From IMG/VR virus record IMGVR_UViG_3300009158_000109, positions 1 through 36,553 of that record: a stretch of 36,553 nucleotides of DNA. One strand, 5' to 3'. The stretch comes from a virus. Positions 1,193 to 36,553 of the stretch are shown here, piece by piece (the stretch's first letter is position 1; each line of letters begins with the position of its first letter). The notes beneath the pieces were generated by a model. The model worked only from the letters and a program-made list of their open reading frames with translations. It ran no database searches and was not told where the DNA came from. The position numbers were made by a program, and so were the translations under genes.

Positions 1193-1202
1193 GGAACCCA
1201 CA

Positions 1203-1856
1203 ATGAAGCTAATTAAAGAAGTGGTGGAAACCACAAACATTATTGTAGAAGAGAAACTGGGTAAAGGTAAACAATACTATATCGAAGGTACATTTCTTCA
1301 ATCTGAGATTGTAAACCGTAATGGTCGTATGTATAAAGAAAATATAATGGATAAAGAAGTTAATCGTTATATTAAAGAATATGTTGATAAAAATAGAGCG
1401 TATGGTGAATTAGGTCATCCAGATAGTCCTTCCATTAATTTAGATCGTGTATCTCATATGATTGTTGGATTAACCAAGGAAGGCACTAATTATCGTGGTA
1501 AAGCTAAAATTTTAGATACTCCAATGGGTAAGATTGCTAAAGGACTCTTGGATGGTGGTGCTAATTTAGGAGTATCAAGCAGAGCAATGGGTTCTTTGAA
1601 GGCAAACAATGAAGGTGTGCAAATAGTTCAAGATGACTTTATGTTATCAACAGCTGCAGATATTGTTGCTGATCCTTCTGCTCCTGATGCATTTGTAAGA
1701 GGAATTATGGAAAATGTAGATTGGGTCTATAACACTAATTCTAAATCTTGGGAAGTAACTGAACAAATTAAATCTAAAATCAGATCTAGTTCAACTAGAG
1801 TTATTGCAGAGAATCAAGCTAAATGGTTTAAGTCATTCTTAAATTCAATTAAATAA
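1203..1856 (+). CDS. 21: Prohead core protein protease (gp21-like)
   Basis: The product is a 217-residue serine protease of the T4 gp21 family (MEROPS U35 type). It would act inside the prohead, cutting scaffold, capsid protein and internal proteins after I/L-x-E. Visible marks are an N-terminal block with SEIVNRNGRMY, the His-containing AYGELGHPDSP segment, the Ser-containing GANLGVSSRAMG segment and the Asp-containing DIVADPSAPDAF segment, in the order expected for the family. I chose the ATG at 1203 (MKLIKEV) because the upstream in-frame ATG at 1152 lies inside the preceding gene, and 1203 follows an AAGGA sequence. It precedes scaffold and capsid genes as in T4. Its likely substrates include the leader-bearing proteins at 34627-36553. 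Confidence 0.92.
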   Translation: MKLIKEVVETTNIIVEEKLGKGKQYYIEGTFLQSEIVNRNGRMYKENIMDKEVNRYIKEYVDKNRAYGELGHPDSPSINLDRVSHMIVGLTKEGTNYRGKAKILDTPMGKIAKGLLDGGANLGVSSRAMGSLKANNEGVQIVQDDFMLSTAADIVADPSAPDAFVRGIMENVDWVYNTNSKSWEVTEQIKSKIRSSSTRVIAENQAKWFKSFLNSIK

Positions 1857-1999: not shown

Positions 2000-3010
2000 A
2001 TGTCTATCGAACAAAAAATTGCAGAGATGCTTGCAGAATCAAGAAATAAAGCGGAAGAAGTAGAAGATCTAGATGAAGAATTAGATGAAGCAATTGCTAG
2101 CAATAGAGCTACTCAAGGTGCTTCTGCACAAGAAACAAATAATTTAACAGGTGCTCCGTTTACAGAGAATCCTGACAATGCAAGAAATAACGTTGATAAT
2201 CAAAATGGTGCAGCAAATGCAACATCTAAAAAATCAAATCCTGCAAATGATAAAGCTGAAGCCGGTGATAAGACGGTTATTAATTCAGTTAAAGAAGATA
2301 TTGATGCACTAGTTAATGGTGAAGATTTATCTGAAGAGTTTAAAGAGAAAGCAACTACAATTTTTGAAGCTGCTATTCTTAATAGAGTGAAGCTAGAAGT
2401 TGCTCACTTAGAAGAAGAATTTGAAGCACGTCTTGAAGAAGCCGCTGCTGAAAATCAAGAGGGTCTTGTTGAAAAAGTTGATGGATACCTTAACTATATA
2501 GTTGAGACGTGGATTGCACAAAATGAAATTGCCCTTGAACGTGGTATGAAGTCTGAAATCCTTGAGAATTTTGTTTCCGGTTTGAAAGGTTTATTCGAAG
2601 AAAATTATATCGATATTCCTGAAGAAAAATTTGATGTTGTTGGTCAAATGGAAGCAGCTATTGAAGAACTACAAGATAAGTTGGATGAACAATTAGCAGC
2701 TAATGTTGAAATGAATAAAATCATTTCTGAAGCTGTTCGTGCTGAAATTGTTAGAGAAGCATGTAACGGTTTGACAGATACAGAAGTTGAAAAGTTCACC
2801 GGTTTAGCAGAAGAATTAGTATTTGAAAATGCTGATACTTTTGAGAATAAGGTTCAGACAATTCGTGAAAACTATTTCACAAACAAGGTAACAACGAAAG
2901 TTGTTGAGTCTATTGTAACAGATGCACCTGTTTCTTTAAATGAAGAGGCTGAAACATATGTTGCTCCTCAAATGAAAAATTACATGTCAGCATTAAACAA
3001 CTTAAAATAA
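2000..3010 (+). CDS. 22: Prohead core scaffold protein (gp22-like)
   Basis: This 336-residue acidic, Glu-rich, largely helical protein lies between protease 21 and major capsid 23, the T4 position of scaffold gp22. The N-terminal 100 residues are low-complexity and rich in Asn, Ala and Glu. The rest contains long heptad-like stretches (for example residues 125-155 and 215-250) suited to coiled-coil core assembly. L-x-E motifs near the start (MLAES) and along the chain would be cut by gp21 during head maturation, as known for T4. The start has a clean AGGAG eleven bases upstream and a late promoter at 1951. Confidence 0.88.
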   Translation: MSIEQKIAEMLAESRNKAEEVEDLDEELDEAIASNRATQGASAQETNNLTGAPFTENPDNARNNVDNQNGAANATSKKSNPANDKAEAGDKTVINSVKEDIDALVNGEDLSEEFKEKATTIFEAAILNRVKLEVAHLEEEFEARLEEAAAENQEGLVEKVDGYLNYIVETWIAQNEIALERGMKSEILENFVSGLKGLFEENYIDIPEEKFDVVGQMEAAIEELQDKLDEQLAANVEMNKIISEAVRAEIVREACNGLTDTEVEKFTGLAEELVFENADTFENKVQTIRENYFTNKVTTKVVESIVTDAPVSLNEEAETYVAPQMKNYMSALNNLK

Positions 3011-3027: not shown

Positions 3028-4323
3028 ATGACACAACGTCAAGATCTAATTAAAAAATGGGCACCGATACTAGAACATAGTTCATTGCCTGCTATTAAAG
3101 ATAACTACCGTAAGGAAGTTACAGCGATTCTTTTGGAAAACCAAGAACGCGAAATGTTAAAAACTTCACAAGTTCTTTTTGAAGATTCTCCAACTAACCA
3201 TGCAGGTGCCATGCCTGATGCAAACGGTGTTGCTAAATTCGATCCAGTATTGATCAGTTTAGTACGTCGTGCAATGCCACAAATGATCGCTTACGACATT
3301 TGCGGTGTACAACCAATGACACAACCTACTGGTTTGATTTTTGCAATGAAATCAAAATATACATCACAAGATGGTACAGAAGCTTTGTTTAACGAAGCAG
3401 ATGCAGGTTTCTCTGGTGACGGTACAGCTAACGGTGGTTCAAACCCTGTTTCTGGTACTTATGATATCGGTCGCGGTATCTCTACATCAGCTGCTGAACG
3501 TTTAGGCCAAGGCGGTTCTGGTGATGGTACTTTTGCTGAAATGTCTTTCTCAATTGAGAAAACTTCAGTTGTTGCTAAAACTCGTGCTCTTAAAGCTGAG
3601 TACTCAGTTGAATTAGCACAAGACTTGAAATCAGTTCATGGTCTTGACGCTGAAGCTGAATTATCAACAATTCTTTCAACAGAAATTCTTGCTGAAATCA
3701 ACCGTGAAGTTATCCGTACTGTTTATAAAACAGCTAAACCAGGTGCTCAAGTTGGTACAGCAGTTGCAGGTACTTTCGACTTAGATGTTGACTCAAATGG
3801 TCGTTGGTCTGTTGAAAAATTCAAAGGTCTATTGTTCCAAATCGAACGTGAAGCCAATGCGATTGCACAACAAACTCGTCGTGGTCGTGGTAACTTCATC
3901 CTTTGCTCTTCAGATGTTGCATCTGCATTAGCAATGGCCGGTGTTCTTGATTACGCTCCTGCTTTAAGCACTTCATTGAATGTTGACGAAGCTTCAACAA
4001 CATTCGCCGGCGTATTGAATGGTAAATATAAAGTTTATGTTGACCCATATTCAGCAAACCAAGGTGCTACACAGTTCTTCACTGTAGGTTATAAAGGTAC
4101 TTCAGCATTTGATGCAGGTTTATTCTACTGTCCTTATGTTCCTTTACAACTTGTTAGAGCTGTAGATCCACAAAGCTTCCAACCAAAAATTGGTTTCAAA
4201 ACTCGTTACGGTATGGTTGCAAACCCATTTGTTGATCTTGATGATTCATCAGGTTCTACAGGTGATTTGATTGCTAACAAAAACTACTACTATCGTCGTG
4301 TTGCTGTTACAAACTTAATGTAA
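3028..4323 (+). CDS. 23: Major capsid protein (gp23-like)
   Basis: This 431-residue protein is the T4-type major capsid protein. The N-terminal segment (LIKKWAPILE, then ENQE) and the block LVRRAMPQMIAYDICGVQPM (about residues 80-99) match the conserved gp23 pattern. Family members are cut by gp21 after an (I/L)-x-E site; here L-F-E at residues 50-52 is a likely site, leaving DSPTN at the mature N terminus (inference). Codon use is noticeably richer in C-ending codons than in neighbouring genes, as expected for a highly expressed gene. An AAGGA site precedes the ATG and a strong intrinsic terminator follows. Confidence 0.97.
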   Translation: MTQRQDLIKKWAPILEHSSLPAIKDNYRKEVTAILLENQEREMLKTSQVLFEDSPTNHAGAMPDANGVAKFDPVLISLVRRAMPQMIAYDICGVQPMTQPTGLIFAMKSKYTSQDGTEALFNEADAGFSGDGTANGGSNPVSGTYDIGRGISTSAAERLGQGGSGDGTFAEMSFSIEKTSVVAKTRALKAEYSVELAQDLKSVHGLDAEAELSTILSTEILAEINREVIRTVYKTAKPGAQVGTAVAGTFDLDVDSNGRWSVEKFKGLLFQIEREANAIAQQTRRGRGNFILCSSDVASALAMAGVLDYAPALSTSLNVDEASTTFAGVLNGKYKVYVDPYSANQGATQFFTVGYKGTSAFDAGLFYCPYVPLQLVRAVDPQSFQPKIGFKTRYGMVANPFVDLDDSSGSTGDLIANKNYYYRRVAVTNLM

Positions 4324-19804: not shown

Positions 19805-19967
19805 GGGCCTGACCAGGTTTCGACAGCGTGGGATAGGATAAGAGTCAACACGTGGGATCACGTTAAATACAAAAAATCGTAAATGCAAATGATAGCAATT
19901 ACAACTATGCCTTAGCGGCTTAGTCTGGGTTCGCCGGTTCCTTGTCATCCAATACCGGCACTATTTT
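19805..19967 (+). ncRNA. ssrA: tmRNA coding piece with tag ANDSNYNYALAA
   Basis: It starts at GGGCCTG, followed by ACCAGGTTTCGAC. A hairpin ACGTG/CACGT (about 19851-19864) is in the pseudoknot-1 area. The A-rich stretch and resume codon GCA (19885) follow, then the 12-codon tag. After the TAG stop, GGGTTCG and the hairpin GCCGGT (19933-19938)/ACCGGC (19954-19959) with a 15-base loop lead into ACTATTTTT. That hairpin could be both pseudoknot 2 and a terminator. The last part is antisense to the C-terminal codons of the endonuclease gene. Confidence 0.8.
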
Positions 19968-20621
19968 TAATTTATTTTTGGCTCTAGTTTCTAACATTTT
20001 TTTAATAGATTCAGGATTTTTCATTGGATTGTTTGTAGAAAAACATGTACTACCAGATAAACCTTTATTCCAACTGGGTTTATCTCTTTTGAATGTAGTT
20101 CCCTTAGTAGTTTTTTTGCCATATTTACCATTAAATCTAGCACAACAACTAAGAGAACAGAAGGGAAGTAATTGTCGATGATGATGAATGAATTCTAGTT
20201 TATAGAAAGTATCTCTGCAAAAGGTACATTCATACTCTCTAGTTTCTTTTGGTTTTGATTTGGTTTTTTTATTATATTCTGCTAAATCTGGTCTAGCAAA
20301 TCCTAGCATTGAATATTTTGTAGTAGATTGCCAATGTTTATTGAGTATTAATGGATTTGAGAAGTTTTCTTGTATTAGTGATTGTTCGAATTGATAGGCT
20401 GAATCTTTATCAAAAAATTCAGCAATAATTTGTATATCAAACTCATTAAATTTTGATTTAACTGTTTTTGAAGATGTAAAATATTTAAATCCTAAATCTT
20501 CAGATGAAGGAACTTTATTTGAACATCTAAACCCAATATAAAATTCATTTGTTGTTTTGTGGGTTAATAAATATACGTAAGGCAAGATATGTGTTTTCAT
20601 ATTATTATTTATATAATTCAT
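19920..20621 (-). CDS. GIY-YIG homing endonuclease inserted in tmRNA gene
   Basis: This is the only convincing minus-strand gene in the window. The 233-residue product begins with a GIY-YIG domain: PYVYLLTHKTTNEFYIGFR gives the VY...FYIG core and the catalytic Arg, and YQFEQSLI supplies the conserved Glu. The middle has a Cys/His-rich finger (CTFC...HHH...CSLSC). The C-terminal part has a NUMOD3-like DNA-binding stretch (WNKGL...NNPMKNPESIKKM). ATGs at 20621 and 20600 are both possible starts. The stop at 19920-19922 falls inside the tmRNA tag end, and the start lies against a second tmRNA segment at 20622. The gene therefore sits exactly between two versions of the tmRNA 3' coding region. 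Confidence 0.85.
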   Translation of the reverse strand: MNYINNNMKTHILPYVYLLTHKTTNEFYIGFRCSNKVPSSEDLGFKYFTSSKTVKSKFNEFDIQIIAEFFDKDSAYQFEQSLIQENFSNPLILNKHWQSTTKYSMLGFARPDLAEYNKKTKSKPKETREYECTFCRDTFYKLEFIHHHRQLLPFCSLSCCARFNGKYGKKTTKGTTFKRDKPSWNKGLSGSTCFSTNNPMKNPESIKKMLETRAKNKLKIVPVLDDKEPANPD

Positions 20622-31817: not shown

Positions 31818-32121
31818 GTATGAAGAAATGGGTGTCCTCCCCGATGGGGCTATGAAATTAAAGTTTACAAATAATAAGTTTGATGATATAATATTCACTA
31901 TTGGATCAGTTTCATTTGGTGAAGGTGAAGAAGAAGGTAAACTGATTTATGATTATAATGTAATTGAACATACCAATCCTTTCATTAGAGAAGAATTAGA
32001 TATCCAAATTGGTGACTTAATTCTTCAGATAATTGAAACCGGTCTTAAAAATAATGATTTAATATATGCAGGCGGGGTAGATGAGAATAGAAACCAAAAT
32101 ACTGAGCAACCTAATTTATAA
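31810..32121 (+). CDS. Hypothetical protein with TTG start
   Basis: This 103-residue acidic protein starts at TTG 31810, with AAAGGAG nine bases upstream and an eight-base overlap with the previous gene. It contains GAMKLKFTNNKFDDIIFTIGS and IREELDIQIGDLILQIIETGL. Its end overlaps gene 41 by 41 bases. It is not recognised. Confidence 0.6.
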   Translation: MIEYEEMGVLPDGAMKLKFTNNKFDDIIFTIGSVSFGEGEEEGKLIYDYNVIEHTNPFIREELDIQIGDLILQIIETGLKNNDLIYAGGVDENRNQNTEQPNL

Positions 32122-33460
32122 TGAAGAGTATTGTAGAAAAGTATCACCATTTTTAACACCACAGTATTTTGCAGAAAGAACTGACAGAGTATTATCCCAA
32201 GAAATTCTAAAGTTCTTTTCTACTTACAATAAACCAATCACTAAAGAAGTATTATTGATTGAAATTGGAAATAGAACCGACATTTCTGCAACTGAATTAG
32301 TATCACTAAAGGATGCAGTAATTGCATTCACAAATGAAAAGACCAATGAAACTTGGTTATTAGAAAATACTGAAAAGTTTTGTAAGGATAGGGCAGTATA
32401 CAATGCAATTCTTGAATCGATTAAAATTATTGATGGCACAGATGATAAGCATACACAGGAGGCAATCCCGAATATTCTATCTGATGCTTTGGCCGTTAGT
32501 TTTGATAATAACGTTGGTCATGATTATATTAATGATGCTGACAGCCGTTTTGATTTTTACCATAGAATAGAGGAAAAGTTATCCTTTGGTTTAGACCTAA
32601 TGGATAAGATTACCGCAGGTGGTTTAAGTCGTAAGAGTCTTAATGTTGTATTGGCAGGTACAGGTGCAGGTAAGACTTTATTTATGGGTCATCTTGCAGC
32701 TTCGGCATTAACTCAAGGTAAGAATGTATTGTATATTACCATGGAAATGGCGGAAGAACGTATTGCCGAACGTATTGATGCAAATCTATTAAATCTTTCT
32801 ATGGCAGAATTAAAGGTAGTTGATAAGAAAACATTTGATTCTCGTTTAAGTAAATTGGCAAAGAAAACCCATGGTAAGTTAATCATTAAAGAGTATCCAA
32901 CTGCAGGAGCACATTCCGGTCACTTTAGGGCTTTACTTGAAGAACTTAAAATGAAACGTGAGTTTAAAGCTGATCTTGTGATTGTGGATTATCTAAACAT
33001 TTGTGCATCTGCTCGTATTAAACATGGTGCAAATGTTAACTCATATACATATATTAAATCAATTGCAGAAGAATTACGTGGTCTTGGTGTTGAGTATAAT
33101 GTACCAATTATGACTGCAACTCAAGTTACTCGATCAGGATTTAATAGTTCCGATGTTGAATTAACAGATACATCTGAATCATTTGGTTTACCTGCAACCG
33201 CAGATCTTATGTTTGCTTTGATTCGTACCGAAGAGTTGGATGAACTAAATCAAGTTATGATTAAACAACTTAAGAATCGTTATAATGATCCTTCATATTA
33301 CAAACGATTTGTACTTGGTATTGATCGATCTAAGATGAAACTATATGATGTTGAAGAATCAGCACAAAAAGGGTTATCCGATACAGGACAAGATTTGACT
33401 CCGGTATTTGATAAGAGTGCATTTGGAAGTAGAATGAAGACTGAAGGGTTCAAGTTCTAA
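32081..33460 (+). CDS. 41: Replicative DNA helicase gp41 (DnaB-like)
   Basis: This 459-residue helicase has an N-terminal helical domain and a RecA-like C-terminal domain: FGLDLMDKITAGGLSRK, Walker A GTGAGKT (193-199), VLYITMEMAEERIAERI (H1a), LVIVDYLNI (Walker B) and ATQVTRSGF. It unwinds the lagging-strand template and works with primase gp61, which is not in the window. T4 gp41 has 475 residues. A GGCGGGG site precedes the ATG. Confidence 0.96.
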   Translation: MRIETKILSNLIYNEEYCRKVSPFLTPQYFAERTDRVLSQEILKFFSTYNKPITKEVLLIEIGNRTDISATELVSLKDAVIAFTNEKTNETWLLENTEKFCKDRAVYNAILESIKIIDGTDDKHTQEAIPNILSDALAVSFDNNVGHDYINDADSRFDFYHRIEEKLSFGLDLMDKITAGGLSRKSLNVVLAGTGAGKTLFMGHLAASALTQGKNVLYITMEMAEERIAERIDANLLNLSMAELKVVDKKTFDSRLSKLAKKTHGKLIIKEYPTAGAHSGHFRALLEELKMKREFKADLVIVDYLNICASARIKHGANVNSYTYIKSIAEELRGLGVEYNVPIMTATQVTRSGFNSSDVELTDTSESFGLPATADLMFALIRTEELDELNQVMIKQLKNRYNDPSYYKRFVLGIDRSKMKLYDVEESAQKGLSDTGQDLTPVFDKSAFGSRMKTEGFKF

Positions 33461-33478
33461 CTTAGATTAATTAAAAAA

Positions 33479-33499
33479 GGCTACTTCGGTAGCCTTTTT
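33479..33499 (+). terminator. Intrinsic terminator after gene 41
   Basis: GGCTAC/GTAGCC with a TTCG tetraloop, flanked by A-run and T-run, lies 18 bases after the helicase stop. The A/T flanks make it potentially active in both directions. Confidence 0.93.
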
Positions 33500-33503
33500 C
33501 TTT

Positions 33504-33511
33504 TATAAATA
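33504..33511 (+). promoter_or_regulatory. Late promoter TATAAATA before 33516 gene
   Basis: Exact TATAAATA just after the gene 41 terminator. The expected start site is within a base or two of the ATG at 33516, so translation would be leaderless or nearly so. Confidence 0.65.
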
Positions 33512-33515
33512 TAAT

Positions 33516-34577
33516 ATGGCCTATAACTTTTTACCAACAACTGCAAAAGAAATCAGTGATAAATTCCCTGATAAAGCATTGTATGCTGAATTGATTTTAA
33601 TACTTACTGATTTACAGCATTTATTTCCATCAATTAAAGATCCTATTGCATTGGACCCATTATTACCAAAGTCAGTTAAAGTTACACGTAAAATTCAAAC
33701 TGAATTCGATCTTAAACCATTACAAAAGAAACTTAAATTATGTAAACTTTCTTTTGGTGAAGGTTCAAGGGGTGGTAGAGGAGTTGGTAATAAAGGTAAT
33801 CTATTTGAAATTCAATTGGCAAAGGATTTAGATAATTGGTGGAAGGGTGAAGATGTTTCCAATAAAGATACTAAATTATTAATTGATGAATTAGCTTCTG
33901 TTTATAAATTAAATACATGGAAAGATTTATTTATTGATGCTGAAGGTGCAGCAAATAAACCAAGACCTTTAATAATATCAGGAAGTAGTGTTTTAGTTTC
34001 ACCTGGATTAATTGATATTGGTTCCACTGTTACTGACATTACACTAAGACAAGGTAAAAACGAACAGTCACCTGCAGGAGCATATTTGTCATTAAAATTT
34101 TCAGGTACAGTTACCTTTTTTAATGCAGGTACTAAAAAATATTTAACAGATGCTGAATTGATGTCAGGTATTATTACCAATAAAGGTGGTTTAGTTTTAT
34201 TGGATATGTTTGGAATTGATAACTCTAGATTTTGTTCAGTATTTAATGGTAAAGGTAAGAAAGGTAGTCTTGAAATTACCACAAATAGAGTTAATAAAAT
34301 AGCTTTACAAAATTTAATTAAATCAGGAATTGGATATGGATATCATATGATTCATAAAACAAATTCTAAAATGGTATCACAGGTTATTGATAAGGCATAT
34401 AGAGACAAAGCATCTGAAGTAAAAACAGTTACTGTATATTATGGTGGTAAAACTGGGACAGGTCAACGAGTAGACATTGAAGTTATAACTCCTAAATACA
34501 TTCTTAAATTTAATTTTAGAAATAAACAGGGTGGTAAATTTATTTCTCATCTAATGTGCGATTATAGTTACAAATAA
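33516..34577 (+). CDS. Late hypothetical protein, possible PD-(D/E)XK nuclease
   Basis: This 353-residue protein lies alone between a late promoter and an early/middle promoter. It contains FGEGSRGGRGVGNKGNLFEI, followed by a helix (QLAKDLDNWWKG), then GSTVTDITLR and AYLSLKFSG. E, D and SLK in this order and spacing resemble the PD-(D/E)XK nuclease core. The C-terminal 130 residues are rich in Lys and aromatic strands. No binding site precedes the ATG. It could be a virion-carried or packaging-related enzyme; this is inference, and no close family is recognised. Confidence 0.6.
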   Translation: MAYNFLPTTAKEISDKFPDKALYAELILILTDLQHLFPSIKDPIALDPLLPKSVKVTRKIQTEFDLKPLQKKLKLCKLSFGEGSRGGRGVGNKGNLFEIQLAKDLDNWWKGEDVSNKDTKLLIDELASVYKLNTWKDLFIDAEGAANKPRPLIISGSSVLVSPGLIDIGSTVTDITLRQGKNEQSPAGAYLSLKFSGTVTFFNAGTKKYLTDAELMSGIITNKGGLVLLDMFGIDNSRFCSVFNGKGKKGSLEITTNRVNKIALQNLIKSGIGYGYHMIHKTNSKMVSQVIDKAYRDKASEVKTVTVYYGGKTGTGQRVDIEVITPKYILKFNFRNKQGGKFISHLMCDYSYK

Positions 34578-34626: not shown

Positions 34627-35247
34627 ATGAAGAAGTTTTCAGAATACATAAAAGAAGAAAAAGAATATCAAGATGGTGCACTTACTGTTTTCGATATTGA
34701 TGATACTCTCTTTCATACAACTGCTCAAATAACAGTTGTCAAACATGGTAAGAAGATAAAAGATCTTACTAATCAACAATTCAATACCTATAAACTTGGT
34801 GATAGTGAATCTTTTGATTATGGTCAATTTAGAGATGCTGCTAAGTTTAATACAGAATCTAAACCTATCGGTGCAATGCTAAATAAAGCAAAGTTAATCC
34901 TTAAAAATTCTGAAAGAAATCCAAACTCTAAAGTGATTATAGTTACCGCTAGAGATGACTTTGATAATAAAGAATTATTCTTAGATACTTTCCGTAAACA
35001 TGGATTTGATATTGATAAAGTTAGGGTTGAACGAGCAGGTAAAATTAATGATGTTTCTGATATAGCTTTCAAAAAGGTTATCATTATTAGAAACTATATA
35101 AATACTAAACGATTCAAACGAATTAGATTGTTTGATGATAGTATGACCAATTTAAAAGCATTCCTAAAATTACAACCCGAATTTCCAATGGTTAAGTTTG
35201 AAGCATACTTCGCTAATCATGATGGAACAGTAAAGAAAATAAGATGA
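34627..35247 (+). CDS. HAD-family phosphatase with capsid-targeting leader
   Basis: This 206-residue protein begins MKKFSEYIKE, which matches the T4 internal-protein leader (MKTYQEFIAE) in length and has I-K-E at 8-10, the prohead protease cut consensus. After it comes a HAD phosphatase domain: VFDIDDTLFH (D23 and D25), IIVTARDD (motif II), a Lys near FKKVIII, and RIRLFDDSMTNL (motif IV acidic residues). The predicted mature enzyme would be packaged inside the head and perhaps injected. Substrate unknown; nucleotide or nucleic-acid end phosphates are possible. The next gene overlaps its stop (ATGA). Confidence 0.8.
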   Translation: MKKFSEYIKEEKEYQDGALTVFDIDDTLFHTTAQITVVKHGKKIKDLTNQQFNTYKLGDSESFDYGQFRDAAKFNTESKPIGAMLNKAKLILKNSERNPNSKVIIVTARDDFDNKELFLDTFRKHGFDIDKVRVERAGKINDVSDIAFKKVIIIRNYINTKRFKRIRLFDDSMTNLKAFLKLQPEFPMVKFEAYFANHDGTVKKIR

Positions 35248-35504
35248 TTAAGTTTAAAGAATTCATAGTAGAAGATAAAGAAACATTTGACTATCTTATT
35301 GGTAAACTACTTAAGACGGCAAAAACTATTAACACCCATAAATCTTATGGTGGTCACTCAAGAACTGACCGTGCTTTTGAGTTGGCAACGAGATATGATA
35401 ACATATTAGAAAAGATAAGACACAAATATCGCCAAGAATGGTATTTGTATTGTGATAAACGAGGTTGGGCTCATAATCATGACGGTGGGGATATGTATGC
35501 TTAA
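35244..35504 (+). CDS. Small protein with capsid-targeting leader, 86 aa
   Basis: The protein starts MIKFKEFIVE|D, with I-V-E at residues 8-10 as in T4 internal proteins cut by gp21. The rest is basic and aromatic (KLLKTAKTINTHKSYGGHSR, RQEWYLYCDKRGWAHNH), suited to DNA packing or injection. It overlaps both neighbours by a few bases. Identity beyond the leader is unknown. Confidence 0.68.
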   Translation: MIKFKEFIVEDKETFDYLIGKLLKTAKTINTHKSYGGHSRTDRAFELATRYDNILEKIRHKYRQEWYLYCDKRGWAHNHDGGDMYA

Positions 35505-35766
35505 GTTTAACGAATATATTACAGAAGAGAAAGCTCCTGAAGGAGTCCCACAAAAGATATGGGACTTACATCTCAAACATAAGAATGTCGAGAAAGATAA
35601 TCCAGATAGTGGTAGTACTAGTGGTGTTCAAAAGACAAGACAAACAATGTCATTTAGACGTTTGAATAATGCTATTAAATCCCACGTTGGGGATGACGAC
35701 AGAAAGCAGTTAGAATATCATTGGAAACTAAATGACCACTATAACGAAAGACACCCAAATGATTAA
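35497..35766 (+). CDS. Small protein with capsid-targeting leader, 89 aa
   Basis: I use the ATG at 35497, where the leader MLKFNEYITE|E begins; the upstream in-frame ATG at 35452 lies within the preceding gene. I-T-E is at residues 8-10. The mature part is hydrophilic and rich in Lys, Arg, His and Asn (IWDLHLKHKNVEKDNPDSGS, HYNERHPND). It is probably an internal head protein. GGTGGGG precedes the start. Confidence 0.68.
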   Translation: MLKFNEYITEEKAPEGVPQKIWDLHLKHKNVEKDNPDSGSTSGVQKTRQTMSFRRLNNAIKSHVGDDDRKQLEYHWKLNDHYNERHPND

Positions 35767-36094
35767 GTTTAAAGCATACATAACAGAAGCGGCTAGTCTC
35801 TCCACTAAAGAAGGAGTGATTGCTGATGGAATTGACCGATTAATTAAAGCTTATAGAAAGCATGGTGATTGGGGAAGTTATCAATATAGTGGTAGAGCTT
35901 GGGCGTCTATCGATAAGATTGAAGATGGCATTATAGCTAGATTCGTAAAATTAGGTATATCCCATAAAGATGCTTTTGATATTGTATTTGGTACTATTAG
36001 GTCTGCCGCTACTAAGGCTCATCATGCATACCAAGAAGCAGAAATGGCTAAATGGGAAGCAGCAGATGCTAAAAATAAAAGGAATGCTAATTGA
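35759..36094 (+). CDS. Protein with capsid-targeting leader, 111 aa
   Basis: The ATG at 35759 gives MIKFKAYITE|A, again with I-T-E at 8-10; the frame's earlier ATG at 35732 would only extend into the previous gene. The mature part is helical (GVIADGIDRLIKAYRKHGDW, then a Lys/Ala-rich end AEMAKWEAADAKNKR). It overlaps the previous stop by eight bases. The likely fate is packaging into the prohead core and cleavage by gp21. Confidence 0.68.
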   Translation: MIKFKAYITEAASLSTKEGVIADGIDRLIKAYRKHGDWGSYQYSGRAWASIDKIEDGIIARFVKLGISHKDAFDIVFGTIRSAATKAHHAYQEAEMAKWEAADAKNKRNAN

Positions 36095-36553
36095 TGATTA
36101 AGTTTAAAGAATATATTACAGAATCATTAGTGGTACCATCTCATATGCCATTAACACATGGTGCAATTGAAGGTAGAGTTAAAGAACGATTTAATGCTGC
36201 CTTAGAAAATCTTAAAATGGCACTTAAAGATGGCACAATACGTAAGGCAGATCTTGATACCATTAAAGATGCATTAAATCGTGCAAGTGAAGCAACATGG
36301 GAAAAATGGTATGCTAGACCTTATTTTTGGGGTAAAATAAAGGATCCTAATATAACCGAGCAAGAGATGGATATATATTATAAGGATAAAGGTTTTAGAG
36401 GTGCCCCTGGTATTATTAAAAACTATACTAAGTTCGCAAATCAATCTAAGATTATAGCAATGGCACTTCAGATTGCCAATGAATTTGCTCCATTTAAAGA
36501 TATAATGGAACATCTTAAAGCCAATATGACAACTGGTAGAGCTCCTTCTACTA
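36094..36553 (+). CDS. Protein with capsid-targeting leader, 3' end missing
   Basis: The gene starts in a one-base overlap with the previous stop (TGATG) and runs off the window after 153 codons. It begins MIKFKEYITE|S, with I-T-E at 8-10. The visible mature part is helical and basic (GRVKERFNAALENLKMAL, RKADLDTIKDALNRASEATW, then YARPYFWGKI). It is the fifth protein in this run with the leader. Its full length and function are unknown. Confidence 0.68.
   Translation, partial: MIKFKEYITESLVVPSHMPLTHGAIEGRVKERFNAALENLKMALKDGTIRKADLDTIKDALNRASEATWEKWYARPYFWGKIKDPNITEQEMDIYYKDKGFRGAPGIIKNYTKFANQSKIIAMALQIANEFAPFKDIMEHLKANMTTGRAPST

Follow-up and report, generated by a model that had tools for sequence, protein, structure and literature searches.

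A run of five genes in a T4-like phage whose products share a leader resembling the capsid-targeting sequence of T4 internal proteins

The 36,553-base IMG/VR virus record analysed here (the window, i.e. the whole stretch of DNA) comes from an uncultured T4-like phage and carries five consecutive genes, the products of which all begin with a ten-residue leader of the type known from T4 internal proteins as the capsid-targeting sequence (CTS). The reading that we favour, with a probability of roughly 0.85, is that these genes form a modular cassette of CTS-directed cargo, packed in the head, cut after Glu10 and injected. The leader is present, it behaves as a module, the genes behind it are shuffled among relatives, and its occurrence agrees with the published virion proteomes of relatives. 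Packaging of leader-bearing proteins in the head is well supported by homology, the virion detections being those of relatives, and is the best reading because the leader, the gp21/gp22 system and the proteomes agree; cleavage after Glu10, injection and the individual functions in the window phage would follow by analogy with T4.

All five genes lie on the plus strand. Gene 1 (34627..35247; leader MKKFSEYIKE, 34627-34656) continues into a HAD phosphatase with a mature part of ~196 aa and a pI of 9.5; gene 2 (35244..35504; MIKFKEFIVE, 35244-35273) into a basic 76-aa protein with no family found; gene 3 (35497..35766; MLKFNEYITE, 35497-35526) into a 79-aa domain; gene 4 (35759..36094; MIKFKAYITE, 35759-35788) into a basic 101-aa protein, again with no family found; and gene 5 (36094..36553, cut by the window end; MIKFKEYITE, 36094-36123) into the start of a protein. 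The sequence-only reading had proposed that the products start with M-[KIL]-K-F-x-x-[YF]-I-x-E, that the genes overlap by one to eight bases and that the mature parts differ; read directly, the leaders fit in 5 of 5 cases with the glutamate at residue 10, the overlaps are 4, 8, 8 and 1 bases, and no sequence relationship links the mature parts. Residues 4, 7, 8 and 10 are fixed (F4, Y/F7, I8 and E10), and residue 11 is E, D, E, A and S in genes 1 to 5, respectively. In-frame starts also exist upstream of the leaders of genes 3 (35452 and 35479) and 4 (35732), but the choice of start codon is settled by the orthologues of both genes in the close relatives L003 and L004, which begin exactly at the leader.

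The first ten residues of T4 IPIII suffice for packaging, and genetic work on its CTS assigned residues 4 and 7 to targeting and residues 8 and 10 to processing (PMC9026906). The likeness to the T4 internal-protein leader that had been recognised from the sequence thus extends to function-bearing positions, since the four positions fixed in the window are those of the IPIII CTS. Assignment to the T4 CTS type is supported by the presence of gp21, gp22 and gp23 on the same contig, by the recovery of T4 internal proteins with the unchanged pattern, and by virion proteins detected by mass spectrometry (MS) in relatives (S-CREM2, S-SCSM1 and the S-SM1 cytidylyltransferase).

The head genes, likewise on the plus strand, encode a gp21-type prohead core serine protease (1200..1856; PF03420, 3.9e-37), a gp22-type scaffold (2000..3010; T4_CASP, 2.6e-67) and a gp23-type major capsid protein (3028..4323; Gp23, 1.1e-143). 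A cognate protease and core are therefore encoded on the same contig as the cassette; the protease is presumed to be the leader-cutting enzyme and the scaffold the docking partner, docking on gp22 being a step that we infer. A little upstream of gp21, positions 1-729 encode the C-terminal portion of a protein in which EEVEPIDELSKKTLGSYV units recur. Replication genes run up to gp41 at 32.1-33.5 kb, followed by a 353-aa gene (phrog_8438) and then the cassette; the gp41 helicase and the slot behind it (32081..34577, plus strand) mark the cassette locus. The slot itself, at 33516-34577 between gp41 and gene 1, is hypervariable, being occupied by several unrelated protein types across relatives. 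A solitary minus-strand gene elsewhere in the window (19920-20621) has a weak GIY-YIG match and, judged by its sequence, probably encodes a homing-type endonuclease. The late-promoter motif TATAAATA showed almost no enrichment in the window over shuffled sequence, with no exact copy immediately upstream of gene 1, and a DNA-level search of the cassette against the phage collection gave no match. Contig L002 (IMGVR_UViG_3300010885_031902), which is 100% identical, stops at the same base, 36553, inside gene 5; the shared end suggests that assembly broke off in the cassette, which is rich in repeats.

Agreement with experiment comes from purified particles of relatives. With the strict pattern, M..[FYW]..[FY][ILV].E, three annotated gene starts of S-CREM2 match, namely those of a SAM hydrolase (MKDFDSFLEE), an APH-like kinase (MKRFDAFLTE, with a GTG start) and a cytidylyltransferase (MKNFSSFLTE). 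The S-CREM2 virion proteome comprises 52 of 219 ORFs (PMC10665884, Table 3) and includes all three (p = 0.013 against all CDS and 0.003 among non-structural ones); the trio constitutes all three of the 'regulatory' virion proteins of that study, whose authors could not distinguish them from contamination. In S-SCSM1 the single strict gene-start match is an NMNAT flagged as a virion protein (1/1), and many of the proteins encoded after gp41 and mazG are likewise flagged. This MS-based test of the leader covers four strict genes in two proteomes, and the published sets derive from CsCl-purified particles, for which their authors allow for carry-over and report no new N terminus at residue 11. 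When the pattern is relaxed, S-CREM2 gains ORF13 and ORF136 (both in the virion) and ORF175 (55 aa, undetected), and S-SCSM1 gains gene 30, which is neither flagged as a virion protein nor known to be packaged. In S-SM1 the cytidylyltransferase T4-GC190, a protein found in virions by MS (PMC3037559), begins MKKFSAFLNE. S-CREM2 ORF12 (L064:7704-10313, minus strand), a virion-detected nuclease annotated as Cas9, has the leader-like stretch LRFASFMAE at residues 17-25; lying away from the start, it was left out of the count, and it opens with CTG, which is no usual initiation codon.

The HAD domain of gene 1 retains the invariant DxDxT, TAR, K and DD motifs (D23, D25, T27, T107, R109, K150, D170 and D171), and its structure was modelled with a pLDDT of 90.4, the leader part being of low confidence. 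The top Foldseek match is another HAD domain; on structural realignment the best match is the T4 Pnkp 3'-phosphatase (5uj0, 1ltq; Z 14.1, rmsd 2.5 Å over 133 residues), the Pnkp1/Rnl/Hen1 repair complex scores Z 13.7, and the top five are all Pnkp phosphatase chains, with other HAD phosphatases at Z 11-12. On the basis of this realignment and of a match to the phrog_415 polynucleotide kinase family (E 2.6e-5), gene 1 models as a putative T4 Pnkp-like 3'-phosphatase.

Searches of genes 2-5 in Pfam, PHROGs, PADLOC and NCBIfam gave no significant family except, for gene 5, phrog_11549, a family without known function, and scans of viral contigs with the single proteins of genes 2 and 4 returned only the identical contig with the same end base. 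The mature part of gene 3 has the same starting point as a domain of 2,000-2,800-aa proteins, and two of the giants carrying it internally also carry ART-PolyVal and LPD38. This domain (PQKIWDLH...RNQTMSFRRLN) is an uncatalogued module in giant phage polyvalent proteins (L057:3763-12255, L059:4162-10362, L058 and L060); gene 3 itself, a single 79-aa domain that is part of a multidomain protein only in its homologues, was not classed as a polyvalent protein. The gene 5 homologue in relative L005 has 302 aa, and another, phiCbK gp185, has no leader and starts after the leader region; gene 5 and gp185 both retain a CxxC...HHGY...C motif. DUF6267 (PF19782), a family absent from the window, is common in marine T4-like phages, where it often bears the leader (L011:2521-3759, L004:7140-8369). 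It has an invariant KxDG motif; Foldseek gave no match to its model at E of 0.001 or less, and among chains realigned with VIA-align, DNA/RNA ligases make up most of the top 50, the best being T4 Rnl2 and REL1 (Z 7.3). The motif and these weak structural matches are no more than suggestive of a ligase-fold nucleotidyltransferase.

The most serious alternative is that docking on the prohead core, brought about by the leader, serves a structural or assembly role, such as that of a scaffold accessory, which IPIII in part has; the mature parts would then not be effectors aimed at the host. The same leader would yield the same localisation in that case, and T4 IPIII mutants do show head-assembly defects, with internal proteins co-purifying with gp22 (PMC9026906). 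However, the cargo includes complete enzymes, such as the gene 1 HAD protein with all of its catalytic motifs, the cargo of relatives includes NMNAT, SAM lyase, kinase and RimK ligase, and the content and order of the cassette vary among close relatives. Furthermore, T4 requires IPIII on one E. coli strain, where the protein functions in the host cytoplasm even when it has no CTS (PMC9391042). We thus consider a purely structural role unlikely, albeit the most credible of the alternatives to injected cargo.

The case for a modular injected cassette also draws on how the leader and cargo are distributed. Homologues of gene 1 occur in 45 viral loci. Most keep a leader ending at residue 10, with a variable linker between it and the HAD domain; the leader is absent in L017 and L044 and broken in L009, L018-L020 and L029, which speaks against the proposal in that gene 1 is not always dependent on it. 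Where gene 1 is 83-84% identical to that of the window, relatives have the cassette in another order, namely gene 3, 4, 2 (L003), gene 3, 2 (L004) or gene 2, 5 (L005), and farther downstream DUF6267 and cytidylyltransferase genes are also leader-bearing (L004, L011 and L016). In the cultured relative Melnitz-3, two genes immediately after gp41 start with strict leaders, and a RimK-like gene has a shifted one. The mature parts are basic and poorly conserved, in a locus that is plastic in order and content among close relatives.

At the DNA level, an unprompted repeat search recovered the leader as a five-copy family. Mean pairwise identity is 0.22 at bases -6 to -1, 0.69-1.0 at bases 0 to 29 and 0.31 at bases 30-35, so that the identity block runs exactly from ATG to codon 10, as a 30-bp repeat. 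The identity of 67-93% among the five copies might indicate that the genes are tandem duplicates of one ancestor, with an N terminus conserved by happenstance and without targeting function. Against this, identity ends abruptly at codon 10 and the mature parts share no sequence relationship, leader-less relatives of gene 3 (in polyvalent proteins) and gene 5 (in phiCbK) occur in unrelated phages, and the leader is found on other enzyme families in distant phages; simple duplication is thus very improbable. Comparison of 13 leaders from five related phages gave, for small-cargo genes, a leader DNA identity of 0.82 within a phage versus 0.74 for orthologous leaders between phages (p = 0.007). 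Genes 3 and 5 of the window have leader DNA that is 93% identical, whereas gene 3 and its L003 orthologue have leader DNA only 67% identical with mature parts 81% identical. The sequence comparisons indicate homogenisation of leader DNA inside individual genomes. T4 is known to recombine through short homologies (PMC9391042), making it plausible, as we infer, that swapping of cargo is mediated by the leader repeat.

The pattern is specific as well as portable. A scan of the rest of the window for the leader, as the sequence-only reading had recommended, gave as its sole further match an internal methionine in gp47 (9017), and none at any other gene start. The strict pattern fits 5 of 10,139 internal 10-mers of other window proteins (4.9e-4), a rate at which five consecutive chance matches would have a probability of ~3e-17. 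In six-frame scans of T4 it recovers only ipII and ipIII among ORFs of at least 60 aa, gene 61.1 being added at 50 aa and above, and it found no match in six frames of P-SSP7, lambda, HTVC010P and 62 kb of phiCbK, four control phages of which none is T4-like. That an AT- and K/E-rich genome yields such N termini unaided is accordingly of negligible probability, because, although isolated matches occur at the internal rate (gp47, T4 61.1), here they lie in five consecutive genes at one locus, as an exact DNA repeat, with other window gene starts and the control phages free of strict matches. The 46 distinct leaders collected have F/Y/L at position 4, F/Y/L at position 7, mostly I/L at position 8 and E at position 10, a composition that is descriptive only, having been selected by the pattern. 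T4 gene 61.1 (L052:18966-19130) encodes 54 aa starting with a full CTS-like leader, MKTFKEFIKE; its protein is acidic, unlike the window cargo, and is not known to be packaged, although from its sequence it is possibly an unrecognised head-targeted T4 protein.

In the mechanism that we propose for the cassette, the leader, through aromatic residues 4 and 7, aliphatic residue 8 and Glu10, would dock each protein on the prohead core, gp21 would cut after Glu10, and the basic mature protein would remain in the head with the DNA, to be ejected into the host as infection begins. In T4, the model for these steps, IPI inhibits a type IV restriction enzyme (PMC9026906). The 30-bp leader is a portable module behind which relatives gain, lose and reorder cargo genes, whose homologues also exist without it. 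The cargo is probably a first-strike toolkit for nucleic-acid end repair, nucleotide/NAD metabolism and counter-defence. More tentatively, and with the odds somewhat against it, marine T4-like phages at large may carry a swappable, leader-addressed virion kit, comprising 3'-end phosphatase, ligase-like DUF6267, NMNAT, SAM lyase and polyvalent domains, that would heal nucleic acids, rebuild NAD and block restriction before any phage gene expression; the 30-bp leader would then be both packaging signal and gene-capture site, doubling as a recombination tract for capturing new cargo.

The leader offers a sequence rule for in-particle proteins of T4-like viruses, which works from raw sequence and includes uncultured ones, and a concrete mechanism for a puzzle of proteomics, i.e. 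the NMNAT/cytidylyltransferase, kinase and SAM hydrolase in cyanophage virions. If the proposal is correct, many 'hypothetical' or 'auxiliary metabolic' genes may be first-strike effectors, active before phage transcription, and the leader repeat would be a simple route for effector swapping among phages. An incomplete search of the literature found no description of the leader in marine T4-like phages.

Several known systems invite comparison. The T4 Pnkp 3'-phosphatase domain shares with gene 1 its fold and the invariant motifs, whereas gene 1 has no kinase domain, has a packaging leader and is only 13% identical in sequence. Polyvalent proteins, for which packaging and injection have been argued (Iyer et al. 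2017, PMC5512222), have an internal domain homologous to the mature part of gene 3, and both they and the cassette look like the delivery of disparate activities alongside DNA; gene 3, however, is a small stand-alone protein with a putative cleavable leader, not fused into a giant. The cyanophage cytidylyltransferase/NMNAT enzymes (T4-GC190) have the same leader at the same positions, and in S-SM1, S-SCSM1 and Syn9 share with the cassette the gp41-mazG neighbourhood. MS has detected them in virions of S-SM1, S-SCSM1 and S-CREM2; they differ in being a single conserved enzyme per phage, and the available part of their authors' report puts forward no packaging signal. The closest likeness is to T4 IPII and IPIII (and IPI and Alt), which have the ten-residue leader with aromatic residues 4 and 7, I8 and E10, basic mature proteins (pI 9.6 for ipII and 9.7 for ipIII, compared with 8.3-9.5 in the window, gene 5 via its L005 homologue), a gp21/gp22/gp23 head and accessory genes that are not conserved. 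The T4 proteins ipII and ipIII carry A at residue 11, which in the window varies, a point against the proposal; the window cassette is longer, with five contiguous overlapping genes, its leader repeat is exactly 30 bp and homogenised within the genome, and its cargo is without detected similarity to T4 internal proteins and includes new types, such as the Pnkp-like phosphatase and the polyvalent-protein domain.
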